From Methylocystis hirsuta (GTDB taxonomy: Bacteria > Pseudomonadota > Alphaproteobacteria > Rhizobiales > Beijerinckiaceae), in contig NZ_QWDD01000003.1 in the NCBI RefSeq assembly GCF_003722355.1, positions 196,029 to 260,028 of the forward strand: a stretch of 64,000 nucleotides of DNA, given 5' to 3'. Both the position numbers and the translations under genes were made by a program. This document shows positions 6,617 through 47,432 of the stretch, one piece after another. The notes beneath the pieces are model-generated. The model searched no databases, had not been told where the DNA came from, and worked only from the letters and a program-made list of their open reading frames with translations. The stretch's first letter is position 1. The number at the start of each line of letters is the position of its first letter.

Positions 6617-6931
6617 TTGACCAGGGCCGGCGCCGCGCAGATGCAATACGACGCCATTCGAATCCGGCTCGATAGCGACGTCGCGGAAGCGTGGTTGGGA
6701 CTTGGAGCCGTGCGCAAGACGATCCGCATCGTCGAACAGCGTCAGGTTCCGCCGGCTTGTTTGTCAGTCGAGACCGCCGCAAGCAGCTTTCAAACCGGCA
6801 CAACCGATCTCGCCGCAGTCTTAAATGCAGAATGTCAGCTCCGTGCGGTCAAATTCGAACTGTTGAAGCTCAAGGTGGATGTACAGGCGAGATATGCCGA
6901 ACTCGAACGTCTGGCAGGAGGCTCGCTATGA
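6617..6931 (+). pseudogene. TolC-type outer membrane factor, C-terminal remnant
   Basis: About 100 residues resemble the last helical repeat of TolC/CusC-family outer membrane efflux proteins: LGLGAVRKTIRIVEQRQVPPA, then SFQTGTTDLAAVLNAE and KVDVQARYAELERLAGGSL, the typical end with a YAELE(R)L motif. The signal peptide and the first two thirds of the gene are missing; the region just upstream contains only a 31-codon frame with a ribosome-binding site. The stop overlaps the cusB start (ATGA at 6928-6931), so the remnant keeps its original operon position. Without this gene the cus block has no channel of its own; the OMF at 30795-32198 could serve instead (inference). Confidence 0.72.
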
Positions 6932-11300: not shown

Positions 11301-11504
11301 CTTGTGCCGATCCTCTGGAGCACGGGCGCAGGATCAGAAGTTATGCAGCGCATCGCCGTTCCGATGATTGGCGGGATGGTGTCTTCGACGGCTCTGACGC
11401 TCGTCGTCATTCCGGCGATCTATGCGCTGATCAAGGGGTTTGGCCTGTCTGAAAAAGGCGAGGTCAAACAGGAGCTGGAAGGAACTATCCATGCAGTTCC
11501 ATAA
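8343..11504 (+). CDS. cusA: Heavy-metal RND efflux pump, CusA type
   Basis: Inner-membrane proton-driven exporter of Cu(I)/Ag(I), 1053 residues, the usual length of HME-RND pumps. It starts with GTG overlapping the cusB stop. Key features are the N-terminal LDAIPDLSDVQ segment, the TM4 motif AIGAMVDAAIVMIENAHKHL with the proton-relay acidic residues, GREFMP-like GSEFMPALNEGALLYMPTTL in the second periplasmic loop, and the GKAGRASTATDPAPLEMFET signature of the HME family. Twelve transmembrane segments can be counted. The C-terminal end (LEGTIHAVP) is short and lacks a CusF fusion. A broken copy of its last 60 codons lies 420 bases downstream. Confidence 0.95.
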   Translation: MIARLIAWSARNLVLIFVGTAFVVAAGFYALRTLPLDAIPDLSDVQAIVYTEYPGQAPQVVEDQVTYPLTSSMLTVPRSKVVRGFSFFGVSFVYVIFDDGVDIYWARSRVLEYLSAASKRLPAGVTPVLGPDATGVGWVYQYALIAKEMTLAELRSIQDWTIRYGLAKAEGVAEIASVGGFVKQYNVVVDPNRLRALGIPLSKVREVIRASNADVGGRTVELSEFEFVVRGRGYLRGTADLESIVLRVESGTPLLLRDVARIELGPDERRGITELNGEGEVASGIALQRYGANALTVIDNIKSTLAQMATSLPKGVEIVSVYDRSQLIHAAIETLKSTLVEEGVIVALVCVVFLMHMRSALVAIIMLPVGVLMAFAAMKALGLGSNIMSLGGIAIAIGAMVDAAIVMIENAHKHLERAQPDERRIEILIDAATEVGPALFFSLLIITVSFLPIFTLEAQEGRLFSPLAFTKTFAMAAAALLSVTLVPALMVIFVRGKIVPEARNPINRALIWLYQPIIRLVLKAKIATILLALGALALTIIPARQLGSEFMPALNEGALLYMPTTLPGLSVTKAAELLQTQDRIIKSFPEVQSAYGKAGRASTATDPAPLEMFETVIQLKPKDQWRPGMTIDKLTAELDAALQFPGVSNAWTMPIRNRIDMLATGIRTPIGVKIFGRDLAQIENLARQVETVVKRVPGATSAYAERVMGGYYLDIAPDRAALARYGLMIGDMQAIIATALGGETVTTTVEGRERYGVNIRYPRDFRSDPRAIAGEVLIPLPGGGTVPLGEVARVELVRGPTSIRTENGQLAVYIFVDIRDRDLGGFVEEARQAVVDAIEFPPGSYVVWSGQFEYLERARGRMQIVVPVTLLIIFLLLYLNFRRLTETLIVMLSLPFALVGGVWLMWLLNFNMSVAVGVGFIALAGVAAETGVVMLIYLDAAMREVAAKRAAGGKNFTRADLREAIMLGAVERVRPKMMTVVAIMAGLVPILWSTGAGSEVMQRIAVPMIGGMVSSTALTLVVIPAIYALIKGFGLSEKGEVKQELEGTIHAVP

Positions 11505-13195: not shown

Positions 13196-13250
13196 GGACT
13201 GCGCGAGCGCAAGAGGAAGACACCCGGGGATATAGACGACGGGGTTGGCC

Positions 13251-17251: not shown

Positions 17252-18094
17252 TTAAATGTCTGCGTCGGCTTCTCCCTTGGTTCTTGGGCTTACGCTAGGC
17301 TCGTCGGCATTGCGCCGTTGCGCCTTCCTGGCTGTCGCGAGACGATAGCTGTCGCCGTTCATCTCCAGAATGTGGACATGATGGGTGAGCCGATCGAGCA
17401 GTGCGCCGGTGAGCCGTTCCGACCCGAACACCGACGTCCATTCATCGAATGGCAGATTGCTGGTCACCAGCGTGGCGCCACGTTCATAGCGCTGGCTGAA
17501 GACCTCGAAGAGCAGTTCAGAACCAACCGCCGTGAACGGCACGTAGCCCAGCTCATCGACGATCAGCAATTTGACGGTGTTGAGATGCTTTTGCAGCGCC
17601 CGCAGGCGGCGCTCGTCGCGCGCTTCCATGAGTTCGTGCACGAGAGCGGCGGCCGAGGTGAAGGCGACGCTGAAGCCCTTTTGGCAAGCGGCGAGCCCAA
17701 GGGCGAGCGCGACGTGAGTCTTGCCGGTTCCGGATGGACCCAGCGCGATGCAGTTCTGTCGCTTCTCTATCCATTCGCACCGCGCCAGCTCCAGAACCAG
17801 CGGCTTGTTGAGTGACGGCTGCGCGGCGAAGTCGAATGTGTCGAGGCTCTTGATCTGCGTAAAGCGCGCCAGGCGAATGCGACGCTCGACATTGCGCCGC
17901 TCGCGATCGATGCGCTCCAGTTCGCACAGGCGCAGCAAATAGCGCGGATAATCGGCGCGATCTTGCGCCGATTCCAGCGCCACTTTCTCATATTCGCGCG
18001 CGAAGGTGGGAAGCTTCAACGCCTTGAGGTGATTGCCCAGTAGCACCTGCGGCGCGACGATCGTTTGGGAGGTCGACTCCTGCGAGGCGCTCAT
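17252..18094 (-). CDS. istB: IS21 helper ATPase IstB
   Basis: A 280-residue AAA+ ATPase that assists IstA during transposition. Seen are the Walker A GPSGTGKTHVALALG, the Walker B-like LLIVDELGYVPF, and the sensor region TSNLPFDEWTSVFGSERLTG. The start overlaps the istA stop by 4 bases (ATGA), the normal translational coupling of the family. The C-terminus is slightly extended (RRNADEPSVSPRTKGEADADI, shown only in part) but otherwise of normal length. Confidence 0.96.
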   Translation of the reverse strand: MSASQESTSQTIVAPQVLLGNHLKALKLPTFAREYEKVALESAQDRADYPRYLLRLCELERIDRERRNVERRIRLARFTQIKSLDTFDFAAQPSLNKPLVLELARCEWIEKRQNCIALGPSGTGKTHVALALGLAACQKGFSVAFTSAAALVHELMEARDERRLRALQKHLNTVKLLIVDELGYVPFTAVGSELLFEVFSQRYERGATLVTSNLPFDEWTSVFGSERLTGALLDRLTHHVHILEMNGDSYRLATARKAQRRNADEPSVSPRTKGEADADI

Positions 18095-19617
18095 GCCGAA
18101 ACTCGTGCACTTGGCTCGATAGCGGCTGCGTTGGCGACGAGCCCGAGATAGGCGCGCGGGTCTGTCGCGCCGACTGTCGCCACTGGCAGATAGGGATAGA
18201 ATGTCAGATCGAGCCGGGCTGGCCGGTTCTCCAATTTGGCGAGCAGGAGCATCTTCACCGCGTCAAAACTGATTGCGCCAAGACGCAGCGCCTCCGCGAT
18301 GGCCTGTTCGACGAGATGTTGATGGAAGTCCTCCATCAGCCGCAGCACCTGGATGAACTCGCGGCGCCCGCTGTTCCCCATGCGCGCCTCCATCAGCCGC
18401 CGCAGACGATAGACGCAATCGGCGAGGCGCCAGTCGTCGAGCGGCGCGGCCTGATCGAGCGCCTGGCTCTTGTGTTCGAGCAAGGCGAGATAATGCAGCG
18501 GATTATAAATGAACTCGGCCTTGTCGTAGCTGCGCGCATGCACGGCGACCGTCTCACCGCGACAGACAATCTCGACTCTGTCGACGTAACCCTTCGCCAA
18601 CACCTCTTGATGGCCATAGCGGGTTGGAACCGAGTAATCGTTGTTGCGGTAGCGCACCAACGACATGGACGAGACGCGCGTCGCAATCTTGTGACAGGCG
18701 TCATAAGGGGTCGGCGGCAACGGCATGAACGCGGATATGTCCGACTGCATGCGTTCGCTGATCGTCATCGACTGGCCGCGCAATATTGCCTGTCGTCGCT
18801 TCGTGCAGGCGTCGAGGAGCCTTACGTTGAGCGCGTCGAAACTCTCCGCGACAGGCAGAGGCGTCATGAAGTTGCGCCGGACATAGCCGACCAGCCCCTC
18901 GACCTTGCCCTTGTCATTGCCTTTGCCCGGTCTGCCGAAGCGATCCTCAAACAGATAATGGCTTTGGAGTTCGGCAAACATTTGCGAACGCAGGCGCCTG
19001 CCGCCCTTCACGATCTTTGCAACGGCGAGCCGAGTGTTGTCGTATAAAATCGACTGCGGCACGCCGCCGAAAAAATCGAACGCCGCCACATGACCATCGC
19101 AAAAGGCTTCCGCTGTCTCGGCGGGATAGGCCTTGACGAAGCAACTGTCCGAGTGCGGCAGGTCCACGCAAAAGTAATGAAAGCGGACCTTCTTGCCGGC
19201 GATGTAGCCGTCCGCCTCGCCAAAATCCGCCTGCGCCTGTCCGGGGCAATGGCTCAACGGAATAAACATCTCGCGCGACCGCAACAGCGCCCGCGCCACA
19301 TACTCGCGAACGATCGTGTAGCCGCCGGAAAACCCCTCTTCGTCCCGTAACCGTTCAAAAATCCGCTGCGCCGTATGCCGCTGCTTTTTGTGAACGCTCC
19401 GGTCGCCCTCCAGAATATTGTCGATCCAGGCCATATACGGCCCCAGCTTCTTCGATGCCGGCCGCTCGCGCCGCCGATAGCCCGGCGGAATCGAATATTG
19501 GAGCATCTTCGTGATCGTGTTGCGATGAACGCCAAAGCGCTTAGCCGCCTCCCGCCGGCTCAGCCCGTCCGCCATCACTGCGCGTCGTATCGCGGCATAG
19601 AGTTCCACTGTGAACAT
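18091..19617 (-). CDS. istA: IS21 transposase IstA
   Basis: A 508-residue DDE transposase. The N-terminus has a helix-turn-helix (LSRREAAKRFGVHRNTITKML). The integrase core has QADFGEADGYIAGKKVRFHY (first D), LYDNTRLAVAKIVKGG (second D) and GNDKGKVEGLVGYVRRNFM (catalytic E). The C-terminal Mu-type barrel domain follows (SVPTRYGHQEVLAKGYVDRV). The length is normal and the frame is undisturbed, so the element is probably active. Confidence 0.96.
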   Translation of the reverse strand: MFTVELYAAIRRAVMADGLSRREAAKRFGVHRNTITKMLQYSIPPGYRRRERPASKKLGPYMAWIDNILEGDRSVHKKQRHTAQRIFERLRDEEGFSGGYTIVREYVARALLRSREMFIPLSHCPGQAQADFGEADGYIAGKKVRFHYFCVDLPHSDSCFVKAYPAETAEAFCDGHVAAFDFFGGVPQSILYDNTRLAVAKIVKGGRRLRSQMFAELQSHYLFEDRFGRPGKGNDKGKVEGLVGYVRRNFMTPLPVAESFDALNVRLLDACTKRRQAILRGQSMTISERMQSDISAFMPLPPTPYDACHKIATRVSSMSLVRYRNNDYSVPTRYGHQEVLAKGYVDRVEIVCRGETVAVHARSYDKAEFIYNPLHYLALLEHKSQALDQAAPLDDWRLADCVYRLRRLMEARMGNSGRREFIQVLRLMEDFHQHLVEQAIAEALRLGAISFDAVKMLLLAKLENRPARLDLTFYPYLPVATVGATDPRAYLGLVANAAAIEPSARVSA

Positions 19618-20775: not shown

Positions 20776-21003
20776 ATGCGCAAAATGCTAACTTCTGGCG
20801 CAGTTCTAGCAGCCGCAATGTTGTGGGCGTCATTGGCGCAAGCCGGCACATTTCACCACGGCCGGTATCTGCCGGACTACGGAGGGCACTACCGCTATCA
20901 GCACAGGGATTGGAGCGGCTACTATGGCTACGGTGGAGGCATGCCCTTCCGCGGTCCTTGTTGGGTATGGGATCAAGGCCACTGGGTTTGGGTTTGCCGG
21001 TGA
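20776..21003 (+). CDS. Small secreted Gly/Tyr-rich protein with WVWVCR end
   Basis: A 75-residue exported protein: signal peptide to about residue 23 (ASLAQA), then a Tyr/His/Gly-rich region (HHGRYLPDYGGHYRYQHRDW) and the end CWVWDQGHWVWVCR. The HRDW motif, the Cys and the WVWVCR tail match the small protein at 11541-11753, so the two are paralogues that differ in the central part. A strong ribosome-binding site and a terminator-like hairpin directly behind show that it is expressed as a single-gene unit. Function unknown; an envelope or metal-binding role is a guess. Confidence 0.78.
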   Translation: MRKMLTSGAVLAAAMLWASLAQAGTFHHGRYLPDYGGHYRYQHRDWSGYYGYGGGMPFRGPCWVWDQGHWVWVCR

Positions 21004-21859: not shown

Positions 21860-24800
21860 ATGGAATCGGTTGACAAGCCCTGGCATTGCTTGACCGGCGA
21901 TGAAGCGCTGCAGCGCCTCGGCGCGCCCGCGAACGGCCTGAGCTCAGCGGAGGCCAAGAACAGACGCGCCGTAATCGGGCCGAATGCGATCGCGGAGACA
22001 AAGCCGGTTAGCCCCTGGGCGATCTTTTTCGCCCAGTTCAAGAGCATTCTCATCTGGCTCTTGATCGGCGCCAGCGTCGTCTCGGGCGCGCTCGGCGAGG
22101 CGACAGATTCGTTTGTCATTCTCGCGATCGTGTTCCTGAACGCAGTTGTGGGCTTTTATCAGGAATACAGCGCAGAAAAATCGATTGCGGCCTTGAAGCA
22201 AATGACCGCGCCGCGGGCGAAGGTTTGGCGTGACGGCGCGGTGACAACCAGTGCCTCGGCCGACGTGGTTCCTGGCGACCTGCTGGAACTCGAGTCCGGC
22301 GATCTCGTCGCGGCCGATGCGCGCTTGCTGTCCGCGGCGTCGCTCACCTGCGTCGAGGCCGCCCTGACGGGCGAGTCCGAGCCCGTCGGGAAGAGCATCG
22401 AGGCCCTGGACAACCCGGAGTTCGCCATCGGCGACCGGACCAACATGGTGTTCATGGGAACGAGCGTCGCGACCGGCTCCGGCCGCGCCGTCGTCGTCGC
22501 CACCGGGATGCGAACCGAAATGGGCCACATCGCTTCGCTGATCAGCGAGGCGGGCGCTGAAGCGGAGACGCCCCTTCAGCAGAAACTCGAGCGGTTCGGC
22601 CACGTGCTCCTGTGGGCCACGCTTGGAACCGTGACATTACTCTTCGGCCTCGGCTTCTTGCGCAAAGAGCCGATCCTCGACCTGTTCATGACGTCGGTCA
22701 GCCTCGCCGTCGCGGCGATACCCGAAGGCCTGCCGGCCGTGGCGACGGCGGCTCTGTCGCTCGGCGTGCTGCGCATGTCGCGACGCCGCGCCCTCGTGCG
22801 CCGGCTAGCGTCCGTAGAGACGCTGGGCTCGACCAATGTCATCTGCACCGACAAGACCGGAACTTTGACAGTTGGTCAGATGACCGTCCGCGCCATGGTC
22901 GTCGCCGACCGGACCTACGAGGTCTCCGGCGAGGGCTACAGTCCCGAAGGCGATGTGCGATTGAGCGGCGCGGCCGTCGACCCCAGTCGCGACAGCGCGC
23001 TGCGCCAAATGGCGCAAATCCTTGTCGGTTGCAACAACGCTCAATTCGAGCGATCGAAAGACAATGCGTGGAGCGTTATTGGCGACCCGACCGAAGGCGC
23101 GCTGCTCTCCGCGGGTCAAAAAGCAGGCGCCGACCGGAGCGCGTTGGACCGGGACGATCCGAGGGTTCACGAAATCCCCTTTGATTCCGACCGCAAGCTG
23201 CATTCGATTGTTCGGCGCTTGCCCGATGGGCGTCTGCGCGTTCTCACAAACGGCGCCCCAGAGATGCTGTCGGCCAAATGCTCACACATTTGGCGCGAGG
23301 ACGGCGTTCATCCGCTGACCGACGCGGATCGCGAAGAACTCGCCCGGCAAAACGCCAATCTGGCCGGCAAGGCGCTGCGCGTGCTCGGCGCGGCTTATCG
23401 CGATTTCGATGGATTGTCGCTCGATCAACTTACCCCGGAAACCGTCGAGCGTGATCTGGTTTTCGTGGGACTCGCCGGCTTATACGACCCCCCGAGGGCC
23501 GAGGCGAAAGAGGCCGTCGCAAAATGCCAAGCCGCCGGCATCCGGGTTGTGATGATAACCGGCGATCATCCGCGCACCGCCATCGCCATCGGCAGGGAGT
23601 TGGGGCTCGCTGAAGAAGGTCAGGTAGCGACGGGCGTCGAACTCGACCGGCTGACCGATGACGCTCTGCAGCAACGCGTCCCCAGAATCGCCGTCTATGC
23701 GCGCGTCAGCGCCGCGCACAAATTGCGCATCGTCAGGGCGTGGCAGGCGAACGGCGCCGTCGTCGCCATGACCGGCGATGGCGTGAATGACGCGCCGGCA
23801 ATCAAGGGCGCCGATATCGGGGTAGCGATGGGCCGAATCGGCACGGAAGTGACGAAGCAGGCGTCCGACATGATCGTCACCGACGACAATTTCGCGACCA
23901 TCGTCGACGCGGTGGAGGTAGGCCGCGGCATCTATGAGAACATTCGCAAGACCCTGCTATACCTTCTCGGCTGCAACGCCAGCGAACTGCTGCTTATCAC
24001 GATTTGCATCGTCAGCGGTCTCCCGACGCCTCTCCTGCCCATTCATCTGCTCTGGATCAATCTCGTCACCGACGGGCCGCCGGCGCTATGTCTCGCGGCG
24101 GACCGCGTCGATCCAGGACTAATGAGCCAGCGTCCGCGCGCGCGGGGAGAGCAGCTCGCGGATGCGCGATTTTTCTGGGCGATGTTGTTGACCGGATCGC
24201 TCATCGCTGGCGTGACTTTCCTCGCCTTTTTATGGGGGCTGCAATCGGGGGGCCTCGAGGTCGCGCGCACTTACGCATTCTGCGGGATGGTCTTCGCGCA
24301 ACTGCTGATTTCGCTGGGCGCGCGCAGCCAGACGACGCCGATCTGGCGCCTGGACCTTATGTCGAACCTCAATTTGCTCCTCGTCGTGAGCGTGTCCATC
24401 ACGATCCAGATGTGGACTCACATCAGCGCCACGCTCTCGCGTTTCTTGTCGACGTCACAACTTCCTTACCAGGATGGCTTCGTCTTGCTGGCCGCCGGCG
24501 CCGTGCCATTGCTGGCGCTCGAATTCGTCAAGCTCGCGCCTGCCGCAGCAAAAGAAGAGCGCGGGGCGATCCCCTCGACAAGATGGATTGGGTCGATAAC
24601 GGCGGTCGTCATTGTGGCGACCTTCGCTGCAAGTTGGCTCTATTGGCCGCAGCCGCGGGAAACCGCCGCGCAATTTTTGACCCACGCGATCGAACGAGGC
24701 GACGTGATCCGCGCCGTCACGGCGACCGGCGTCGTCCGTCCGCGGCTGACGACCGAGGTTTTCGCGCCCCTGACGGGCGTCGTGCGATTTCCCGATTGCG

Positions 24801-25663
24801 AGGTCGGCGCTACGGTTACGAAAGGCCAGCTTTGCGCAACGATTGATCAGCAGCATTATCGTCTACTCGTCGAACGCCGAAGAGCCAATTTATCCGCCGC
24901 CCAAACGCAATTGGACAAGGACAAGAAGGAACTCGCGCGTGCGAAATCGACCTTGGAGCGCGCTCGTGCCTCGGCGAAGCGGAGCTTGATCGACAAAGCG
25001 ACAAGCGCACATGAGCGGGCGCTCGCAAGAACGAAGCGTAGCGAGAACCTGACCGCACAGCGTGAAGCTGCGTTGCGCGTGGCCGAAACGGCTTTCCGAC
25101 GAACGGAAGTCCGGGCGCCCATGGACGGGGCCGTGACTTTCCGGCGGCTCGAGACTGGCCAGACGGTCGAAGCGGGAAGGTCGATGCTCTTCATCATCAC
25201 GGATCACGCCGACGCGCAGATCGAGGTTGTGGCGGCGCCGGGCGAGGTTGGCAAGGTCAAGATCGACGATCGGGCTTCAATCAAGATGGACGCGGCGCCG
25301 GGGCGGGCGTTAGACGGGCGGGCGACAGAGATACGCAAGCTGCAGAATGTTATCGTCCTGTCCGTCCCGGACGCCGAAAGCGTGCTTGAATCGGGCATGA
25401 CAGCGACTGCGCGGATTGTAATCGATGAGCGCGTTAACGTGCTCCGCGCGCCGAACGAGGCGCTGCGCTATTCGCGGAGGCGCGATGCGGCGCAAGTCCC
25501 CGCCAGAGGCGAAAAATCTGACATCATGTCAATTTGGGTGCTGCGCAAAGAGAAGCCGACGCCTGTCCCTGTCCGACTTGGTCTGGACGACGGCGCGTAT
25601 ACGGAAATCGTCGAAGGCGATTTCGAACCCGGCGACGAGTTGATCGTCGGCGAGAAGGTTTGA
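21860..25663 (+). CDS. Fusion: P2A (Ca-type) P-type ATPase + HlyD/MacA-like periplasmic adaptor
   Basis: One uninterrupted 1267-codon frame. Residues 1 to about 900 are a complete P2A ATPase: N-terminal cation-ATPase domain, T170-GES, TM4 with P288-EGL, phosphorylated Asp331 in ICTDKTGT, MITGDHPRTA, the hinge with [10 protein letters not shown] (637-646) and ten membrane helices. The Ca-binding positions of SERCA are kept in TM5 (N706, E709 in GCNASELLLI) and TM6 (N734, T737, D738 in WINLVTDG). A further helix (about 909-929, WIGSITAVVIVATFAASWLYW, quoted in part) leads into about 340 residues of an adaptor: ATGVVRPRLTTEVFAPLTGVV, an alpha-helical coiled coil (about 990-1060), APMDGAVTFRRLETGQTVEA, then beta-barrel and a C-terminal membrane-proximal region. 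The order is topologically sound, since the ATPase tail is cytoplasmic and the extra helix exports the adaptor to the periplasm. No known tripartite system uses a P-type ATPase; the function is inferred. Confidence 0.92.
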   Translation: MESVDKPWHCLTGDEALQRLGAPANGLSSAEAKNRRAVIGPNAIAETKPVSPWAIFFAQFKSILIWLLIGASVVSGALGEATDSFVILAIVFLNAVVGFYQEYSAEKSIAALKQMTAPRAKVWRDGAVTTSASADVVPGDLLELESGDLVAADARLLSAASLTCVEAALTGESEPVGKSIEALDNPEFAIGDRTNMVFMGTSVATGSGRAVVVATGMRTEMGHIASLISEAGAEAETPLQQKLERFGHVLLWATLGTVTLLFGLGFLRKEPILDLFMTSVSLAVAAIPEGLPAVATAALSLGVLRMSRRRALVRRLASVETLGSTNVICTDKTGTLTVGQMTVRAMVVADRTYEVSGEGYSPEGDVRLSGAAVDPSRDSALRQMAQILVGCNNAQFERSKDNAWSVIGDPTEGALLSAGQKAGADRSALDRDDPRVHEIPFDSDRKLHSIVRRLPDGRLRVLTNGAPEMLSAKCSHIWREDGVHPLTDADREELARQNANLAGKALRVLGAAYRDFDGLSLDQLTPETVERDLVFVGLAGLYDPPRAEAKEAVAKCQAAGIRVVMITGDHPRTAIAIGRELGLAEEGQVATGVELDRLTDDALQQRVPRIAVYARVSAAHKLRIVRAWQANGAVVAMTGDGVNDAPAIKGADIGVAMGRIGTEVTKQASDMIVTDDNFATIVDAVEVGRGIYENIRKTLLYLLGCNASELLLITICIVSGLPTPLLPIHLLWINLVTDGPPALCLAADRVDPGLMSQRPRARGEQLADARFFWAMLLTGSLIAGVTFLAFLWGLQSGGLEVARTYAFCGMVFAQLLISLGARSQTTPIWRLDLMSNLNLLLVVSVSITIQMWTHISATLSRFLSTSQLPYQDGFVLLAAGAVPLLALEFVKLAPAAAKEERGAIPSTRWIGSITAVVIVATFAASWLYWPQPRETAAQFLTHAIERGDVIRAVTATGVVRPRLTTEVFAPLTGVVRFPDCEVGATVTKGQLCATIDQQHYRLLVERRRANLSAAQTQLDKDKKELARAKSTLERARASAKRSLIDKATSAHERALARTKRSENLTAQREAALRVAETAFRRTEVRAPMDGAVTFRRLETGQTVEAGRSMLFIITDHADAQIEVVAAPGEVGKVKIDDRASIKMDAAPGRALDGRATEIRKLQNVIVLSVPDAESVLESGMTATARIVIDERVNVLRAPNEALRYSRRRDAAQVPARGEKSDIMSIWVLRKEKPTPVPVRLGLDDGAYTEIVEGDFEPGDELIVGEKV

Positions 25664-26291: not shown

Positions 26292-29200
26292 TCACGATTG
26301 TCCATCAATCGAGTCCGAAGCCAATTTCCGCTGCGACGAGCCAGTAATGTGGCGCACTTCGCTCCAATCCTTCCAGATAAAATAGATGGCTGGATAGATC
26401 AGCAGCTCTACGAGGAAACTGAACACGATCCCGCCGGCCATCGGCGCGGCGATCCGCTTCATGAGGTCGGCGCCGGTCCCGGTGGCGAACATGATCGGCG
26501 AAAGGCTCAGCAGCACCGACCAGAATGTCATCATTTTGGGCCGCACGCGCTGAACGGTGGCCTCAGTGACCGCCCCTTCCAGGTCGACGAGGTTCGTCAT
26601 CCGTCCTTCCCGCTTCCAACGGTCATACGCCACGTCCAAATAGAGGAGCGTCACCATCCCGGTCTCGGCGTCGACGCCTGCGAGCCCGAGAATTCCGACC
26701 CACACCGCAACGCTGAGATTGTAGCCCATCAGCAACAGCGCCGTGAACGCGCCGGCGACGGCGACGGGCACCGCCAGGACCACCATCAACACTCGGACGA
26801 GCGATGGGTTGTTGAGATAGAGCAACAGGAAGATGGCAGCGAGGGTAATCGGAATGAAATACACGAGCAGGCGGCGCGCCCGCTCCATTCCCTCGTACGC
26901 CCCGCTCCATTCAAGCCTGTAGCCCGCGGGCAGCTTGACCTTCTCGCCGACGATCCTGCGAGCGTCGTCCATATAGCTCCCGGTGTCGCGGCCGGCTATG
27001 TCGACATAAGCGTAGCCCACAAGCTGCGCCGCTTCGCTCTTAATGAGCCCAGGACCATCGACGAAGCGAAGCTCGCCCAATTCCTCCAAAGGGACCTGAG
27101 CCCCCGTCGGCGTCGCGATCAACACGCGCTTGAGCTTCGCTAGATCGTCCCGCAGTTCGCGCCCGTAGCGGACGTTCACGGGAAAGCGCTGGCGGCCCTC
27201 GATCGTTTGCGTGAGATTGGCGCCGCCCACCGCCGCCTGGATCACTTCCTGCACGTCCATCACCGACAGACCGTAGCGGGCGATAGCGTCGCGGTTGATG
27301 TCGATGTCGAGATAGCGACCTTCCGCCACGCGTTCGGCGAAAACGTTTCTTGTTCCCGGGACCATGGCGACGGCGGTTTCGACCTGCGAAAGGATGCTTT
27401 CGATTTGCGCAAGGTCCGGCCCAAAAACCTTCACGCCGATCGGCGTCCTGACGCCGGTCGAAAGCATATCGATCCTGGCCTTGATCGGCATGGTCCAACT
27501 GCTGACGAATCCCGGGATGTCGATTTTCAGCGCGTCATTCATTTCCCCGATCAGTTTTTCGGGGGTCATGCCGGCGCGCCACTCGCCTTCGGGCTTGAGG
27601 TTGATGACTGTTTCGATCATCTCGAGCGGCGCCGGGTCGGTGGCGGTGTTGGCCCGCCCCGCCTTGGCGAAAACGCTCGTCACTTCCGGAAACGTCATTA
27701 AGATTTTGTCTTGTTCTTGGATGGCCCGCTGCATCGTCTGGATAGACGCCGCCGGCAGGGTCGTGGGCATGAAGAGCGCCGTTTCTTCCCACAATGGCGG
27801 CATGAACTCGCGGCCAAGGCTAAAATAAAGAGGGACGACCGAGGCGATGGCGAGAAATCCGAGCGCGACCATCCCGTAACGAAATTTCAGCGACAGCCTG
27901 ATGATGGGCCGATGGATCCAGATAAAGAATCGATTGATCGGGTTCGCCTCTTCGGCCGGAATTTTGCCCCGGATAAGGACTCTCAAGAGGAAAGGCGTGA
28001 CGGCGATGGACAAGATCGCCGCAGAGAACATGCTGAACACATTGGTATAGGCGAGCGGCTTGAACAACCGGCCCTCCTGCTCCTGAAGCGCGAATATCGG
28101 CAACAGGCTCAAAGTCATGATCAGGAGCGAGAAGAACAGCGACGGACCCACCTCCTTGCTGGCTTCGATCAGGACCTCGAGGCGCGGACGGCGCTCTTCG
28201 ACGGGTTTTCTCTCCTCATATTCGATGTGCTTGTGGGCGTTCTCGACCATCACAGTGGCGGCGTCCTCCATCGACCCGATCGCGATGGCGATGCCGCCGA
28301 GGCTCATGATGTTGCTGGTGAGCCCGAACCATCGCATCGCCAGCAGCGCCATCAGGATCGCCAAGGGGAAGGTGACGATCACGACCAAACCGCTGCGGAC
28401 GTGGAACAGAAACACCAAGCATACCAGGCCGACGAGGACGCTTTCTTCAACGAGCGCCTCCCTCAACGTCGCCACCGAATGGTCGATGAGCGTCGATCGA
28501 TCATAGGTGACGACGAGCTCGACGCCTTCCGGCAAGGCGGGCGCGACCTTCTCGGCGATCGTCTTCTTGACGCGCGCCAACACGTCATAAACACTCTCGC
28601 CGAATCGGACGACGACGATGCCGGCGGCGGCGGCGCCCATCCCGTTGTAGTCCACGGTCCCCCGACGGATGTCGGGACCGATCTGCACGAAACCAACGTC
28701 CCGCACGAGAATGGGCGTGCCGTCGGGCCGCGCTCCGACCGCGACCTTCTCGATGTCGGAAGGGCTTTGAATGTACCCCCTCCCGCGCACCATGTATTCC
28801 GCGCCGGTGAACTCCAGCACGCGGCCGCCGACTTCCTGATTGGAGCGGCGGACCTGGTCGACTACCTTGTTGATCGGGATTTGGTAGGCGAGCAGCTTAT
28901 CGGGATCGAGCGTGACTTGATATTGCTTTACGAAGCCGCCGACGCTCGCCACTTCCGCGACGCCCGGCACGGATCGAAGCTGATATTTCACTTGCCAGTC
29001 CTGCAAGCTGCGAAGCTCGGAGAGCGAGTGTTTCCCCGTCTTGTCGATCAGGACGTATTCAAGTCCCCAACCGACGCCGGTGGCGTCTGGCCCGAGTTGC
29101 GGAGACACGCCCGGCGGCAACCTCCCCGCCATGCCGCTCAAATACTCCAGCACGCGGCTGCGCGCCCAATAGAGGTCGGTACCGTCCTCGAAGATGACGT

Positions 29201-29480
29201 AAACGAGAGACTGGCCGTAGAAGCTGCTCGCTCGCACCGCCTTAACTTTGGAGGTGGACAAGAGCTGCGTGACGATAGGATATGTAATCTGGTCTTCGAT
29301 GATGTTGGGACTGCGATCCTCCCAGTCCGTGGCGACGATCACCTGCGCGTCGGAAAGGTCGGGGAGCGCGTCAAGGGGCGTGTTGTATGCGGCCCAAAGG
29401 CCTGCGCCGACGATGACAACGATCGCCGATATGACGGGAAACGCGTTGCGGGCGCTGAATTCGATGATGCGGCCGATCAT
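26292..29480 (-). CDS. Heavy-metal RND efflux pump, second system
   Basis: A 1062-residue HME-RND transporter related to CusA/CzcA. It has LDALPDLSDAQVIV at the N-terminus, the GREFMPPLWEETALFMPTTL block, the GRANTATDPAPLEM signature and twelve membrane segments. Its TM4 motif reads AIGSMEDAATVMVENAHKH where the other pump (8343-11504) has AIGAMVDAAIVMIENAHKH, so an extra acidic residue replaces Val in front of the relay Asp. It is the last gene of a minus-strand operon with the adaptor (40 bases upstream) and an outer membrane factor. Metal specificity cannot be read safely; copper/silver is most likely by similarity. Confidence 0.93.
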   Translation of the reverse strand: MIGRIIEFSARNAFPVISAIVVIVGAGLWAAYNTPLDALPDLSDAQVIVATDWEDRSPNIIEDQITYPIVTQLLSTSKVKAVRASSFYGQSLVYVIFEDGTDLYWARSRVLEYLSGMAGRLPPGVSPQLGPDATGVGWGLEYVLIDKTGKHSLSELRSLQDWQVKYQLRSVPGVAEVASVGGFVKQYQVTLDPDKLLAYQIPINKVVDQVRRSNQEVGGRVLEFTGAEYMVRGRGYIQSPSDIEKVAVGARPDGTPILVRDVGFVQIGPDIRRGTVDYNGMGAAAAGIVVVRFGESVYDVLARVKKTIAEKVAPALPEGVELVVTYDRSTLIDHSVATLREALVEESVLVGLVCLVFLFHVRSGLVVIVTFPLAILMALLAMRWFGLTSNIMSLGGIAIAIGSMEDAATVMVENAHKHIEYEERKPVEERRPRLEVLIEASKEVGPSLFFSLLIMTLSLLPIFALQEQEGRLFKPLAYTNVFSMFSAAILSIAVTPFLLRVLIRGKIPAEEANPINRFFIWIHRPIIRLSLKFRYGMVALGFLAIASVVPLYFSLGREFMPPLWEETALFMPTTLPAASIQTMQRAIQEQDKILMTFPEVTSVFAKAGRANTATDPAPLEMIETVINLKPEGEWRAGMTPEKLIGEMNDALKIDIPGFVSSWTMPIKARIDMLSTGVRTPIGVKVFGPDLAQIESILSQVETAVAMVPGTRNVFAERVAEGRYLDIDINRDAIARYGLSVMDVQEVIQAAVGGANLTQTIEGRQRFPVNVRYGRELRDDLAKLKRVLIATPTGAQVPLEELGELRFVDGPGLIKSEAAQLVGYAYVDIAGRDTGSYMDDARRIVGEKVKLPAGYRLEWSGAYEGMERARRLLVYFIPITLAAIFLLLYLNNPSLVRVLMVVLAVPVAVAGAFTALLLMGYNLSVAVWVGILGLAGVDAETGMVTLLYLDVAYDRWKREGRMTNLVDLEGAVTEATVQRVRPKMMTFWSVLLSLSPIMFATGTGADLMKRIAAPMAGGIVFSFLVELLIYPAIYFIWKDWSEVRHITGSSQRKLASDSIDGQS

Positions 29481-29520
29481 GGGCTACCCTCGATCGAGAG
29501 GCGGAGGACGCGGAGGCGAC

Positions 29521-30750
29521 CTAGTGCGTCGTCTTTGGATGAGCGGCGTCCTTCTTTTCTTTTTGCTCGACGCCCATCCCGGGCATGCCCGTCATGTCGC
29601 CGCCGCCAGCGCGCAGCCGGCTTTCCGAATCGATGAGGAAGTTGGCGGAGGTCACAACCTCGTCGCCGGCCTTAAGCCCCTCGAGAATCTGGAAGCGGTC
29701 ATCGAACCGCAAGGGACTGATTCTTACCTCGACCGGCGCGAAGCGGTCGGGGGCGACCGCACGAAAGGCGATGTCACGCTCGCCGGTGCGCAGGACGGCG
29801 GATGTCGGAACGGTCAAGCCGCTTCCCATTGCGTGAGCGATCAAAACATTAGCGAACATGCCGGGCTTAATTAGGCCGTCAGGATTGGGCAGCTCGACGC
29901 GAACCTGCACCGTCCTGCTCGGCTCGTCGATCACCGGATCGATGAAGACAATTCTGCCGACGAAGGATCGCGCCGCCAGTGATGGAAACGTCACCGTCGC
30001 TGGCATTCCGAGAGCAACATGCGGCAATTCATACGCGAAAACCTTCCCCTGCACCCATACCGTCGAGAGGTCGGCGACCGTATACAATTCGGCCTGCGGC
30101 ATCACATATTGGCCTTCGAACGTCTTCTTTTCCAGGATGACCCCCGAAATGGGGCTCCGCAAAATAAGCGATTTGCTAGGTTTCCCCGTCTTTTCCAACG
30201 CCTCGATCGTGCTCATTGGCACGTCCCACAACGCCAGTCGTTGCCGAGCCGTGTCGACCACGTTTCGCTGACCGGGCGAGGGTGCGGCCCTGCTGTACTG
30301 TAGCGCAATCAGGAACTCCCGCTGTGCCGCAAAGAATGCGGGACTGTAGATCGAGAGCATGGGATCGCCGGCTTTGACTTTCTGGCCGGTGAAGGAGACG
30401 AACAGCTTTTCGACCCAGCCTTCCGTTTTCAAGTGGATGTGTCTGACTTTGGTTTCGTCAGGACGCACGATGCCGACGGTACGAATCGTCATCGTCAACG
30501 GCGTCCGCCGCACGGTTCCTAACGTCACGCCGATGCGTTGTTGCACTTCCGGCGCAATGCGGACCTCGGCGAATCCTGACGGCGGCGCGGCGCGTGTCTT
30601 AGGGGCGTCGCTCGATCCCGGCATTTCCATGCCGGACATGGTCTTGTCTGGAGTTGATTTTCGCTCATCGCCAACACTGGGAGTGACGGTTAAAATCAGC
30701 AGCGCCGTTAGCGCCAGTCTGCCGAGATATCCGCACCGCTTCATCGACAT
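29521..30750 (-). CDS. RND efflux periplasmic adaptor, second system
   Basis: A 409-residue membrane fusion protein. A signal/anchor segment (residues 8-25) is followed by a short Met/Ser-rich linker with SGMEMPGSSDAPKT, then the adaptor body: VGIVRPDETKVRHIHLKTEG (barrel-sandwich), helical hairpin with FFAAQREFLIALQYS, SPISGVILEKKTFEGQYVMP, beta-barrel with AARSFVGRIVFIDPVID and the C-terminal VPTSAVLRTGERDIAFRAV region. It lacks the HMBD repeats present in the first adaptor. The tail GMPGMGVEQKEKKDAAHPK adds a few Met/His residues. Between OMF and pump genes, spacing 40-45 bases, so one operon. Confidence 0.92.
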   Translation of the reverse strand: MSMKRCGYLGRLALTALLILTVTPSVGDERKSTPDKTMSGMEMPGSSDAPKTRAAPPSGFAEVRIAPEVQQRIGVTLGTVRRTPLTMTIRTVGIVRPDETKVRHIHLKTEGWVEKLFVSFTGQKVKAGDPMLSIYSPAFFAAQREFLIALQYSRAAPSPGQRNVVDTARQRLALWDVPMSTIEALEKTGKPSKSLILRSPISGVILEKKTFEGQYVMPQAELYTVADLSTVWVQGKVFAYELPHVALGMPATVTFPSLAARSFVGRIVFIDPVIDEPSRTVQVRVELPNPDGLIKPGMFANVLIAHAMGSGLTVPTSAVLRTGERDIAFRAVAPDRFAPVEVRISPLRFDDRFQILEGLKAGDEVVTSANFLIDSESRLRAGGGDMTGMPGMGVEQKEKKDAAHPKTTH

Positions 30751-30794
30751 GCCATTCTCCGCTATAGCCGTGTCGCCGCTCCGGCCAGTCCAGG

Positions 30795-32198
30795 CTATTG
30801 CAGAGAGGCTTGTTCCGGCGGCTCCGGCGGCGACATCTCTGGCCGACCGAGCGTTTCTATGTCCACGCCCGCAAGAGCTTCGAGTTCCGCTAGCCGCTTT
30901 TCTCGCTCGATCCTGGCTTCGGCGACCAAGACCCGGACTGAAATATAAGTCCGCTGGCTGTCGATGAGATCCGCGAACTGCACGCTTCCAGCTGCGTAGG
31001 CTTCCCGCGAACTGTTGATCAGTTGCTCGACGATAGGGACCACCCGCCGCCGGTAAAAACTCGTTTGTCGCTCTGCGTTGCGCATAAAGTAAAGGTTGGC
31101 GACGAAGCTCGCAGCGCGGTCTTTCTCGGTTTGCCGCAGGACTGCTTCCGATGACCGCGCCATCGCCTCCGTGTCCTGGATCATCGCGAGAATCGCCGGG
31201 ATCCTCGTCGGCACCATCACAAACATTTCGGCCGTTCTTTCAATATTGCCGGTGATGCTCCCGGCAGGCACGAGATCCGGCAGAAATTCCAGCCTGGCGA
31301 GCTCTATGGCGTCCTTGCGTCCGGCCACTTGGCGGGCGAGAGCGGCCAATTCCGGGTTTTGATCGACGGCGACCTCGATGATGCGAGCATCCTTACCGAT
31401 CACGGGACGCGCGGCGGGCAAAGTCGGGGGAAGGTCCAGCGGCGCCTCGGCGTCGCGAGCAAGAAGACCGTTGAGCTTACTGCGCGCCGAGCGGACCTCG
31501 GCTTCCAAGTTCAGCAGGTTGTTCTTCGCCAGCTCCCAGTTGGTCTGGGCCTTCAACATGTCTTGCAGGGGAGCCCCAGCCTGGCTCCGAGCGGCGGCCG
31601 AGCTCGTCAAGAGCTTGAGAAGGTTTACGTTGTCGCGCTCGATGCGGACTTTTTCCCTGGCCAGCGCCAAATCCAAATAAGCGATGAGAACCTTACGCTG
31701 AAGCTCGAACTTGACAGTGCGAAATCTCTCGCTGGCCGCTCTGGCCGCCTCCAGCGCTACTTTTCCAGCGGTCCACGTTTTGATCGGCAACTGCAGAGTC
31801 GTCGACGGCATGAAGGTGCCGCTGAGCGTCATGCGGTCCCATGTCTTCATCTGATCACGCGAAAACATGTAGCGGTAACCGAACATCAAATTGGTGTTGG
31901 GCCAGCTCGCATCCCGGTCGACCCGGGCCAAAGCCGCCTTCCACTCGAAATAGGCCGATTCTAATTCCCCATTGGCTAGGAACGCTCTGTGCAGCACGTC
32001 GCGCCAGCTGGCAACCGCAGGCAGAGCCGGCAACTCCCGAGCCTCAATCGGCGGCTCGAAGTGCTCGGAAACTTCGCTCAGCTTGGCTTGCTCCTCCGTC
32101 GTGCCAGGTGGCGTGAGAGCACAGCCGCTAAGCCCCAAGGCTGTCGCCATGCTCAACCATGCCCTCAGGATGAGGTCGCGCGGTCGTTTGCTGAGCAT
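30795..32198 (-). CDS. TolC-family outer membrane factor (lipoprotein)
   Basis: An outer membrane channel subunit of tripartite efflux. From ATG 32198 the protein has a lipoprotein signal with lipobox LSGC (ALGLSGCALTPPG), so the mature protein is lipid-anchored as in CusC. Two helical repeats follow with the typical segments YFEWKAALARVDRDASWPN, KFELQRKVLIAYLDLALARE and YAAGSVQFADLIDSQRTYIS. A start at 32249 would add 17 residues in front of the signal peptide and is rejected. It is the first gene of the minus-strand operon. As the only intact OMF in the window it could also serve the CusBA pump and the ATPase-adaptor fusion (inference). Confidence 0.92.
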   Translation of the reverse strand: MLSKRPRDLILRAWLSMATALGLSGCALTPPGTTEEQAKLSEVSEHFEPPIEARELPALPAVASWRDVLHRAFLANGELESAYFEWKAALARVDRDASWPNTNLMFGYRYMFSRDQMKTWDRMTLSGTFMPSTTLQLPIKTWTAGKVALEAARAASERFRTVKFELQRKVLIAYLDLALAREKVRIERDNVNLLKLLTSSAAARSQAGAPLQDMLKAQTNWELAKNNLLNLEAEVRSARSKLNGLLARDAEAPLDLPPTLPAARPVIGKDARIIEVAVDQNPELAALARQVAGRKDAIELARLEFLPDLVPAGSITGNIERTAEMFVMVPTRIPAILAMIQDTEAMARSSEAVLRQTEKDRAASFVANLYFMRNAERQTSFYRRRVVPIVEQLINSSREAYAAGSVQFADLIDSQRTYISVRVLVAEARIEREKRLAELEALAGVDIETLGRPEMSPPEPPEQASLQ

Positions 32199-44156: not shown

Positions 44157-47100
44157 TCATTCTCGGATCACGCCGAGAGAAATACGTCGATTTTTTGCGC
44201 GTCCCTCTTCGGTGTCATTGCCCGCGATCGGACGGTCTTCGCCATAGCCCTTCGCCTCCAAGCGCGAAGGGGCGACCCCCATTTGTGTCAGTTCACGGGT
44301 TACAATATCGGCGCGCGCTTTCGAGAGCCTCTTATTCGCGATTGCATTGCCGAGGCTATCGGTGTGGCCGCCAATGACCACCTTGACCTCGGCGTAGGCG
44401 GAAAGAATCCGAGCGATATTTTGCAGTTGCTCCCGCGACGACATCTGCGGAGCCTTTTTGCCCTTGCCGAACGAGACGCGATCGAAATCGAACCAGACAA
44501 TTTTGGCTGCGGACTTAGGCGTGCTCTCGAGGAACGCAAGCAACTTTCTTTCGACACCCGCGCTGGAAACGTCTAACTCGACGCCATTCGGGAGGCTTAT
44601 TCTGGCATATGCGTGTGGCCCCTCGCCCACCGTTTTCGCCTCGCGTTCTCCGGTCTCTGTTTGGGTTTGCTTCTCGATTGTCGAGCCCACCCCTTTCCGG
44701 ACGGTAAGCGTGGCCGGTGGCGGAGCAGGCGTCACTTGTTGCGTCGGCGCCGGCGTCGGTTTCTCTATCGAACTCGGTTCCGTTTCTTGCGAGCCGAAAA
44801 ACTTCGGCCCATAGCCGATGAGGATCACACCGAAGGAGATCGTCAACAACGCCGCCAATACAGCCCACGCAACGCCCTTTCGACCCCGAACGGACGAATA
44901 AGGTTGATCGCTTGCAGACTGTTCTCCCTTGACCACTTTTGCGACCTCGATCCAAAACGTAGTCAAAATTGTCACGGCGATAATTGCAATCCATAAGTCA
45001 GGTCCAAGCGCAGCAGTCTTAAAGTAAATGTTGAGCGTCGGCGTGGAGGTTATCGCAACGGAGAAAATAATCATCCCGACGAGCCACGAGGCGCCAAACC
45101 GATTGGAAAACAATCCTTGTTTGAAGAGCGACAGTTTTTCTTGCTTCAGGTTGAGCGCCAAGGCGATATGCCCAAGAAGCCAGGTGACGAACGCCGCGGT
45201 TTGGGCGAGCACAAGATCGCCAGTTTGGAAATAGATCGACAGGTAGAGTGCGGTGATCCCGACAGCTAAGGCCGCTCCATTGCGAATGATTTCGAATACC
45301 AGTTCTCGGCCCAAAAACTCGTCGAGTCTTGGCGCTCTCTTCTTCATCACATCCGGCTCTGCCGCTTCCGTGACAAAGATCGTGGAAGACGCCAAATCCA
45401 TAAGCAGTTCGGTCAGGATGATGTGGATCGGCGCAAAAGGAAATGGAACTCCGAGGGCTAACGGCACAAGAAAGATCGCCAGCAGAATGCCTTTGGCGGT
45501 CAGATAGTAAGTCAAACCCTTGCGGAAGTTATCGAGAGCCGAGCGTGCGACGCCAATCGCATCGGCGACATGCGTGTAATTATCATCGGTGAGGACGAGA
45601 TCTGCGGTTTCCTTGGCGAGATCGGCGCCGATCTCGCCCATTGCGATTCCAACATCAGCGGCTTTTAGCGCGGGCGCGTCGTTAATCCCGTCGCCGATAA
45701 CTGCAACAATTTGTCCTTCTTGCCTGAGCGCCTGGACAAGGCGCAGTTTCTGCGCCGGTGAAATACGGGCGAACGCCTTCGTCTTCTCGAGCGCGGACTC
45801 GAGCTCGCTTTCGCTCATGTTCTCGAGATTGCCACCCGTTAATACCTCTGCGTCTAGGCCGATTTCTCTTGCGATCGTCGCCGCGGTCGCCGGGTGGTCG
45901 CCGGTCACCATGATCGTTTCCACCTTGGCGGCTTCAAGCTCTGTGATGGTTTGGGCGACGCCCTGTCTCACAGGATCGGAGAGGACAGCAAGCGCAAGAA
46001 GTTCGGCTTTGTTCGGATCATCGGAATTTTGCAACTGCCCGTATGCGACGACGCGCTTGCCTTCTCCAACTTTTACCTCAAGCGCCCGGCGCAGCCGTTC
46101 CTTCCGGGAGGAATCGGAGACGCTTTCGATCAGCCGTTCGGCCTTACCGGCGGCATATCCGAGACGCTTGCCCCCGATGTCGTAGCCGATGATTCTCAAA
46201 GGCCTGTCTTCGCCAAATCCAGAGAAGCTCGCCTGCCGAGGAACATCAATTGAGTCTTGAACAACAGAGCGCACTGCAAGGTCGGTGGGGTCATTGGAGT
46301 ACATCGGAAGCGCCAGCAAGATGGCTCGCTTATTATCAGCGGAGAGACTTGCAGGCGTTCGTTCTTCGCCATTCAGCAATATGAATGTTTCGACGCGCAT
46401 TCTGTTTTCGGTGATCGTGCCGGTCTTGTCCGTGACAACCGCCGTAATTTGCGCCAGCACCTCGACGCCTCTGAGGCGCTTTACGACGAGCTTGATGTTC
46501 GCCAGCCGAAAGGAGGCCAACGCCAGCGCCATGGTGATGATGATCGGCGGCTGGCCCGGTATCATGAGGAACGTAAGGGCAAGCCAGGTGACAATCATTT
46601 CTTGAAGATTGAGGCCTCGTAAAAATCCGACTGCCGGAATGAGGGCGCTGACCGCCAGTGCGAAAATCGCCAAGACCTTGGCAAGCCGCGTCATCGTCTC
46701 CTGTAAGAGGGTCTTTTCCTTCGCAGCGACAGCAACCTCATGCGCGGTCTCGCCGAATTCGCTCTCGCGGCCGACCGCGCAGGCAAGCGCCTTGCCTTCG
46801 CCGCTCATCACCACCGTCCCTGAAAATACCGAGTTCTTGCGTTCGGCAAGGGGAGCGTCTGCGGACACGATCGTCTTTGCGTCTTTCTCGACCGGCAGCG
46901 ATTCTCCAGTTAGCGCCGCTTCGTTCACGACGAGACCGTAGGCTTCCAATAGGCGGCCATCGGCGGGTACGCGAACGCCTTCAGTGAGAACCAAGACATC
47001 GCCGACGACAACATCGGTCGTCGGTATCTCCTGCGCCTGACCGTCGCGAATCGCCTTCGTTGTCGGCGACGTGAGCTGGCGGAGCGCCGCCATAGTGCGG

Positions 47101-47432
47101 TCCGTGCGATATTTGTTGACGAATTCAACCGCGATGTACGCCGCCACCACGAAAACCATCACGATCGCTTCGTTGGTCTTGCCAAAAACAAAGGACAAAA
47201 CGGCAATGGCAAGCAAGACGAGCATCATCGGCTCGCGTATGCCATCGAGAACGAGTTTGAACGCGCTCGTGGGCTTGACTTCGTCGATCGTGTTGGCGCC
47301 GAACCGCTCGCGAGATTTGCTCACGCCATCGGCGGAAAGACCGTCCCTTTCGTTGGAGCCGAATTCGGCGAGAAGGGACGGCGGCGGAACCGACCACCAT
47401 GCGTCTTTCTTTCGAAGGGCATTTCCAGCCAT
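44157..47432 (-). CDS. Fusion: P-type ATPase + OmpA-family peptidoglycan-binding domain
   Basis: A single 1091-codon frame. Residues 1 to about 840 form a P-type ATPase of P2-like layout: N-terminal segment, T175-GES, phosphorylated Asp335 in VVTDKTGTIT, MVTGDHPATAA, hinge IGDGINDAPALKAADVG with D581, N584 and D585, and ten membrane helices. The ion site is unusual: TM4 reads P292-GQPP instead of PEGLP, TM5 has LTAKGILLAI and TM6 ILTELLMDLASS, so the classical Ca ligands are missing. An eleventh helix (about 852-874) and a Pro/Thr-rich linker lead to an OmpA domain (about 950-1091) with WFDFDRVSF, VIGGHTDSLGNAIANKRLSK and RAKNRRISLG, including the Asp and Arg that hold diaminopimelate in peptidoglycan. 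Start and linker show no internal stop or restart. Confidence 0.92.
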   Translation of the reverse strand: MAGNALRKKDAWWSVPPPSLLAEFGSNERDGLSADGVSKSRERFGANTIDEVKPTSAFKLVLDGIREPMMLVLLAIAVLSFVFGKTNEAIVMVFVVAAYIAVEFVNKYRTDRTMAALRQLTSPTTKAIRDGQAQEIPTTDVVVGDVLVLTEGVRVPADGRLLEAYGLVVNEAALTGESLPVEKDAKTIVSADAPLAERKNSVFSGTVVMSGEGKALACAVGRESEFGETAHEVAVAAKEKTLLQETMTRLAKVLAIFALAVSALIPAVGFLRGLNLQEMIVTWLALTFLMIPGQPPIIITMALALASFRLANIKLVVKRLRGVEVLAQITAVVTDKTGTITENRMRVETFILLNGEERTPASLSADNKRAILLALPMYSNDPTDLAVRSVVQDSIDVPRQASFSGFGEDRPLRIIGYDIGGKRLGYAAGKAERLIESVSDSSRKERLRRALEVKVGEGKRVVAYGQLQNSDDPNKAELLALAVLSDPVRQGVAQTITELEAAKVETIMVTGDHPATAATIAREIGLDAEVLTGGNLENMSESELESALEKTKAFARISPAQKLRLVQALRQEGQIVAVIGDGINDAPALKAADVGIAMGEIGADLAKETADLVLTDDNYTHVADAIGVARSALDNFRKGLTYYLTAKGILLAIFLVPLALGVPFPFAPIHIILTELLMDLASSTIFVTEAAEPDVMKKRAPRLDEFLGRELVFEIIRNGAALAVGITALYLSIYFQTGDLVLAQTAAFVTWLLGHIALALNLKQEKLSLFKQGLFSNRFGASWLVGMIIFSVAITSTPTLNIYFKTAALGPDLWIAIIAVTILTTFWIEVAKVVKGEQSASDQPYSSVRGRKGVAWAVLAALLTISFGVILIGYGPKFFGSQETEPSSIEKPTPAPTQQVTPAPPPATLTVRKGVGSTIEKQTQTETGEREAKTVGEGPHAYARISLPNGVELDVSSAGVERKLLAFLESTPKSAAKIVWFDFDRVSFGKGKKAPQMSSREQLQNIARILSAYAEVKVVIGGHTDSLGNAIANKRLSKARADIVTRELTQMGVAPSRLEAKGYGEDRPIAGNDTEEGRAKNRRISLGVIRE

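Follow-up and report, generated by a model that had tools for sequence, protein, structure and literature searches.

A MacA-like adaptor module fused to a P2A-type cation ATPase and to other membrane complexes in Methylocystis and its relatives

Periplasmic adaptors are described for resistance-nodulation-division (RND), ATP-binding cassette (ABC) and major facilitator superfamily (MFS) transporters (PMC8277102), and the TolC-binding RLS motif at the hairpin tip is given as RxxxLxxxxxxS (PMC3391258). Here we describe a gene at 21860..25663 (+) of a 64,000-nucleotide stretch of the Methylocystis hirsuta genome (contig NZ_QWDD01000003.1, positions 196,029 to 260,028; the whole stretch is called the window), in which a P2A-type ATPase and a MacA-like adaptor are joined in one protein. 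For the adaptor tail the closest described system is MacA of MacAB-TolC, with which it shares fold, domain order and membrane anchor; moreover, standalone members of the tail's own family adjoin MacB. Unlike that MacA, the window tail does not contain the RLS motif, its hairpin tip is shortened and it is covalently attached to a P-type ATPase, while the gene has neither an adjoining MacB gene nor an outer-membrane factor (OMF) gene of its own. For the ATPase part the closest systems are the P2A Ca2+-ATPases LMCA1 (Listeria lmo0841), SPCA and SERCA. The ion-site residues of transmembrane helices 4 to 6 (TM4-TM6) are common to all, and in an alignment to LMCA1 the window residue Q814 occupies the position of the TM8 arginine, which has a role in that pump; in contrast to these pumps, the window protein adds an eleventh helix and ~340 periplasmic residues. 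The original prediction knew of no P-type ATPase with such a partner, and our literature search, which was thin on subscription journals and was not aimed at F1 or oxidase fusions, found no paper joining an adaptor to a P-type ATPase.

The fusion of a P2A ATPase to an adaptor is confirmed as real and conserved. The gene is one uninterrupted ATG-to-stop frame of 1267 codons (1267 amino acids), as had been predicted. Its ATPase part (residues 1-894, 21860..24541, +) carries the motifs DKTGT, TGES, TGDGVND and PEGLP and the Pfam domains Cation_ATPase_N (8-75), E1-E2_ATPase (115-309), Cation_ATPase (390-477), Hydrolase (480-652) and Cation_ATPase_C (722-892). These are followed in the tail by HlyD_D23 (1023-1158; PF16576, 46.6 against a cut-off of 30) and HlyD_3 (1084-1159; PF13437, 44.6 against 22.2), so that all seven Pfam matches exceed their curated cut-offs, and the NCBIfam model RND_mfp (TIGR01730) matches residues 944-1260 at 110.7 bits against a cut-off of 94.9. 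The adaptor domain, taken from the start of the latter match to the end of the protein (24689..25660, +), was recognized by Pfam, NCBIfam, AlphaFold2 and Foldseek. Between the two parts lies the eleventh transmembrane helix that had been predicted (residues 909-927, 24584..24640, +), seen as an additional hydropathy peak C-terminal to the last ATPase helix. Consistent with this topology, an AlphaFold2 model of residues 55-1254 (predicted local distance difference test score, pLDDT, 77.2; predicted template modelling score, pTM, 0.60) joins the ATPase to the adaptor by a single helix at model positions 854-873, which correspond to residues 908-927. A misassembly or frameshift at the junction was considered and rejected as very unlikely, since the identical domain order occurs in many independent proteins and genomes.

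The catalytic motifs and the domain order PF00690/PF00122/PF13246/PF00702/PF00689 place the protein in the P2A group. The Ca-site residues that it was said to keep are present: PEGLP (288-292) in TM4, N706 and E709 in TM5, and N734, T737 and D738 in TM6, positions that we take to be equivalent to those of SERCA. The nearest solved structures are LMCA1, SPCA1 and SERCA, the closest being LMCA1 (PDB 9euq, 1.1e-163), and the NCBIfam equivalog cut-offs were missed for both the PMR1 type (673.8 against 798.3) and the SERCA type (592.6 against 703.4). The ATPase part is predicted to be an export pump of the P2A type for Ca2+ or a similar cation.

An AlphaFold2 model of the tail (residues 897-1267, built on an alignment of 24 tails) reached a mean pLDDT of 85.6 and agrees with the adaptor layout originally read from the sequence. 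Under our own domain naming, it runs through an anchor helix, membrane-proximal strands, a barrel-sandwich, a hairpin of two 40-residue helices and a beta-barrel. With the adaptor domain order taken from PMC8277102, AlphaFold2 and Foldseek together identified the membrane-proximal, beta-barrel, barrel-sandwich and hairpin domains. Foldseek ranked MacA of MacAB-TolC first at a probability of 1.00 (matches 9qgy_G, 5nik_D and 4dk0), and among the sequence matches to solved structures MacA chains came first, ahead of MexJ and others; the MacA equivalog PRK11578 was scored below its cut-off (74.8 against 342). The barrel-sandwich part holds a cysteine pair, C980-x11-C992 (24797..24835, +), and the alpha-hairpin with the shortened tip spans residues 998-1080 (24851..25099, +), each of its helices being ~40 residues long.

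We compared 97 tails, 75 fused and 22 standalone, with many of the fused rows coming from related strains. The set comprises 12 of the 20 proteins of the protein search described below and tails scoring at least 60 bits in a first set of open reading frames (ORFs) and at least 70 in a second; L090 was counted as CyoD-fused after a Pfam COX4_pro match, having been standalone in an earlier RLS count (15/17). The RLS/RLT pattern occurs in 6 of the 75 fused tails (P0018, L030, L096, L040, L059 and L067) versus 19 of the 22 standalone adaptors, leaving 69 fused tails without it; shuffled fused hairpins fit the pattern at 4.8%, so about 3.6 of 75 are expected. The Cys pair is present in all 75 fused tails of this set, from which the L043/L044 copies, L136 and L139 (adaptor-like, with long N-terminal parts and without the pair) were left out, and in 8 of the 22 standalone adaptors, those 8 belonging to the same family. 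Only G973 and P1087 are otherwise invariant, across 62 aligned rows. In the window tail the hairpin tip is shorter by 5 residues, as it is in 8 of the 12 rows of its clade; in clade E the hairpin is shorter by up to 21. Clades B, C and D have no C-terminal membrane-proximal part, nor do some members of A and E, and clade B and some members of E lack the beta-barrel as well. A second set, drawn from named genomes and overlapping in part with the loci of the first, gave the RLS pattern in 53 of 70 standalone-like ORFs and in none of nine fused ORFs, with a MacB match within the locus for 64 of the 70. Cysteine was found in 69 of the 70, a biased figure because the search pattern itself included the second Cys. 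A tenth ORF with a long N-terminal part (L196), which has both MacB and the RLS pattern, was counted as neither fused nor standalone.

The search for homologues of the same domain order that the original prediction called for was successful. When residues 900-1267 served as a protein query, 20 proteins were retrieved; of these, P0002, P0003, P0005, P0006 and P0007 share the domain order of the window protein, with Pfam confirmation for P0002, P0006 and P0007. A tail profile at E <= 1e-30 matched in 34 of 39 genomes of the genus, and in the stretches fetched from them a P-type ATPase and an adaptor share one ORF at 46 loci in at least 30 of the 39 genomes. Two other genera of the family also have such ORFs. 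Across 199 genomes of the family, with at most 9 candidates per genome scored, tail matches at E <= 1e-50 in frames of more than 1000 amino acids were listed only for genera g1, g56 and g58, the last two being possibly Methylocapsa and Methylosinus, as the named Methylocapsa loci hint. When 385 genomes of the class were scanned at E <= 1e-60, with at most 4 candidates scored in each, a match came from the window's own genome alone. The nine fused ORFs mentioned above come from 80 named loci, kept out of 127 confirmed ones: two are in Methylocapsa aurea, one each in M. palsarum and M. acidiphila, three in one metagenome-assembled genome (MAG) of Methylocapsa, and one each in MAGs of a Methylocystaceae and a Hyphomicrobiales member. 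Except for the Hyphomicrobiales MAG, we take these groups to be methanotrophs, and the methanotroph lifestyle may be a cause of the distribution. Two damaged copies were seen: in L066 (1643-5240) the fusion gene is interrupted between ATPase and tail, and in L061 (6575-10287) it is split within the ATPase part.

The phenomenon is broader than first noted, with several energy-handling membrane machines carrying the module. It is found on P3A proton ATPases (P0009, P0019, L026 and L027 above the NCBIfam cut-off, L041 and L071 just below), on P1B-hemerythrin ATPases (L059, L128, L132 and P0012 by Pfam; L040, L082 and L125 by similarity) and on an ABC ATPase (P0018). In three genomes it is carried by the alpha subunit of an alternate F1F0-ATPase (L060 7245-9830, L127 1791-4364, L130 1733-4246). 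The alternate gamma gene comes next at all three loci, its start overlapped by the stop of the fusion in L060 and L130, and in L060 beta and b also precede the fusion. Subunit IV of the quinol oxidase, CyoD, carries it at four Methylocystis loci above the CyoD cut-off (L090, L129, L134 and L140), and COX4_pro fusions stand at three more (L224, L161 and L155). The CyoD fusions are preceded by CyoB and CyoC in L140 (where CyoB is cut by the end of the stretch), by CyoC in L134 and by CyoB in L090, each being the best match but scoring slightly under its cut-off; a COX1 protein precedes the L161 fusion. In L154 the module sits on a small membrane protein that gave no Pfam match.

Hydropathy detected an added helix before the tail in all three F1 alpha fusions, in four P1B, one P3A and one ABC fusion, and in six P2A fusions besides the window's. 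No such helix follows the third CyoD helix in any of the four CyoD fusions (L090, L129, L134 and L140), where the C-terminus is presumably periplasmic already. From these profiles and the topologies of the partner proteins, the tail is predicted to be periplasmic in each class examined. Hemerythrin and TPR domains fused to P-type ATPases, both met in this analysis, are likewise cases of domain accretion; those domains are cytoplasmic, whereas the window tail is predicted to follow its added helix into the periplasm. TPR repeats stand in frame ahead of P2A or Mg-type ATPases in L035 (8402-12115), L041 (4042-7908) and L058 (5748-9338). Larger architectures were also seen. ORFs of ~1600 amino acids combine an AI-2E-type transporter, a P2A ATPase and an adaptor tail in L025 (9617-14503, by Pfam) and, by length and similarity, in L040 (6784-11583) and L059 (12172-16971), and a 2236-amino-acid ORF in L080 (1313-8023) has its P-type ATPase domains confined to the first 552 residues.

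A tree of P2A ATPases with 78 rows (44 fused, one of them interrupted, and 34 unfused; L131, L135, L137 and L138 not among them) requires five changes between plain and fused. A single clade of 29 fused rows was rejected in a 52-row subset by the approximately unbiased (AU) test at p-AU 1.4e-124, in quick LG+G4 trees, with the group defined only once an earlier tree had been inspected and with 26 of the 78 rows left out for speed and long branches. A tree of tails with 79 rows unites every fused tail, including the CyoD fusion L090, with seven standalone adaptors from the genus in a single 70-row clade, at a Shimodaira-Hasegawa-like approximate likelihood ratio (SH-aLRT) support of 100; nine other adaptors fall outside it. 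Because five P2A changes stand against a single tail clade, several ATPases have received one adaptor family, and the candidate of a single ready-made P2A fusion that spread was rejected by the ATPase tree and the AU test. At the level of sequence phylogeny, the trees show repeated origin of the P2A fusions and common descent of their tails from one MacA family.

Over the same 15 close pairs, the ratio of nonsynonymous to synonymous substitution rates (dN/dS) was 0.22-0.64 for tails versus 0.06-0.32 for ATPases, and below 1 for the tail in all 15; some strains were used in several pairs, and in four pairs dS fell below 0.07 for at least one of the two parts. As judged by these ratios, the tail module is under purifying but weaker selection, which is apparently not selection for TolC docking.

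Other P-type ATPases of the genus carry tails of other kinds. Pfam identified an OmpA tail in the window itself, on a second C-terminally extended P-type ATPase at 44157..47432 (-) that consists of ATPase, eleventh helix and OmpA domain (992-1082), and in L037 (8171-11596); L073-L076 and L079 are assigned to the same OmpA type by length and identity only (258-residue extensions). A SPOR tail is found on P3A-type ATPases in L077 (800-3844, above the proton-ATPase cut-off) and L078 (1932-4910). An extra helix precedes the OmpA or SPOR tail in the three cases examined.

In the vicinity of the window gene, a CusA/CzcA-type RND protein (26292-29480, -), its adaptor (29521-30750, -) and an OMF (30795-32198, -) form a row on the opposite strand, all by Pfam and NCBIfam. 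The original prediction had pointed to this OMF as the only intact one, 6 kb away. That was misleading: the OMF is the third gene of the RND-adaptor-OMF row (26292-32198) and is therefore already partnered. Neither an OMF nor an inner-membrane exporter gene belonging to the fusion was found in the window, the nearest OMF being the one in the RND row, and dependence of the fusion on it was rejected at this locus. Upstream of the fusion lies a gene for a secreted-looking, His/Tyr/Gly-rich protein of 75 residues (20776-21002, +). Further out, a second RND/adaptor pair (6691-11504, +, by similarity), a copper-type P1B ATPase (13245-15785, +) and an IS21 element (17252-19617, -) give the fusion metal-resistance-like surroundings. 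At other loci, smbP-like genes lie near extended P-type ATPases (L030, which also has a PepSY protein gene, L048, L049, L037, L021 and L042). On an Azospirillum brasilense plasmid (L022 5833-12556), genes for a MacA-like adaptor, an ABC ATPase, a permease, a P-type ATPase and an ABC membrane fragment follow one another on one strand, all unfused.

We propose, with about an even chance of being right, that in alphaproteobacterial methanotrophs the MacA-derived tail serves bioenergetic membrane complexes as a periplasmic tether or scaffold. A MacA-type adaptor with its own membrane anchor has been joined to the cytoplasmic C-terminus of a P2A pump, its periplasmic barrel-sandwich and coiled-coil domain thereby becoming part of the pump. 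The module derives from one MacA family that normally stands beside MacB and, in these methanotrophs, has been attached more than once to membrane complexes of the ion-motive and respiratory kinds. Most copies no longer have the TolC-docking motif, and the part holding the inner-membrane partner is often gone too; the periplasmic side, the anchor and the Cys pair are retained. The tail may then fix or cluster complexes in the envelope, by self-association or by binding an envelope component, and the cation would be exported to the periplasm only, as by other P2A pumps. The OmpA and SPOR tails favour a tether, because we take both to be peptidoglycan-binding domains by family. A bolder version, which we regard as unlikely, has the module as a common plug that gathers P1B, P2A and P3A ATPases, ABC proteins, the alternate F1F0 enzyme and bo3 quinol oxidase in periplasmic oligomers that they share, or links them to outer envelope layers, an efflux adaptor turned envelope organiser that would organise bioenergetic membranes. 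Several points weigh against a tether. We know of no adaptor that acts as one, and the six fused tails fitting the RLS pattern, against about 3.6 expected from shuffling, could possibly dock an OMF. As tails evolve faster than their own ATPases, some of the module may be subject to drift, and the Cys pair need not mark a new function, because it is inherited from the standalone family. There is also a second, weaker hydropathy peak after the added helix in L030, L059, L135, P0012 and P0018, which we take as adaptor strands.

The original prediction, a tripartite efflux system with an OMF docked to the tail and with the ATPase driving a cation through both membranes, is unlikely for the window gene, and we assign it little probability overall: the topology is right, the adaptor fold has a full-length hairpin with MacA of MacAB-TolC as best fold match, and six tails retain the pattern, but the RLS motif is absent from the window tail and most others, tips carry deletions, C-terminal parts are absent in several clades, the nearby OMF sits in an RND row, and the same module is found on CyoD and F1 alpha, which are not exporters. 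That the tail instead partners MacB-type ABC exporters, the fusion placing an ion pump beside MacAB, would suit the parent family's position beside MacB, the ABC ATPase and MacB-like permease that follow the P1B fusion in L059 and L040, and the Azospirillum row. This we hold to be distinctly improbable: in the fetched flanks a bait of one MacB matched beside those two P1B fusions and not beside the window gene or the other listed fusions, with a weak 52-bit match in L031, and many tails have lost the C-terminal membrane-proximal part. The invariance of the Cys pair, together with the smbP-like and PepSY protein genes near some fusions, might point to a periplasmic domain for metal handling or redox sensing, through which the exported ion is taken up or gated, a reading that strikes us as rather improbable given that the pair also occurs in standalone adaptors of the same family, may be a structural disulfide, and is found on F1 alpha and CyoD fusions too. 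Neutral accretion of tolerated, functionless fusions would explain the varying tail lengths, the faster tail evolution and the interrupted and split copies; however, tail dN/dS is below 1 in every pair (not all independent), the Cys pair is invariant, the frame is kept across genera and the P2A tree holds five changes, which leaves this account very improbable.

The significance of these fusions lies in the repeated grafting of one module onto unrelated energy-converting complexes within one group of methane oxidisers. Such grafting suggests that the complexes have a periplasmic need which other bacteria do not meet in this way.

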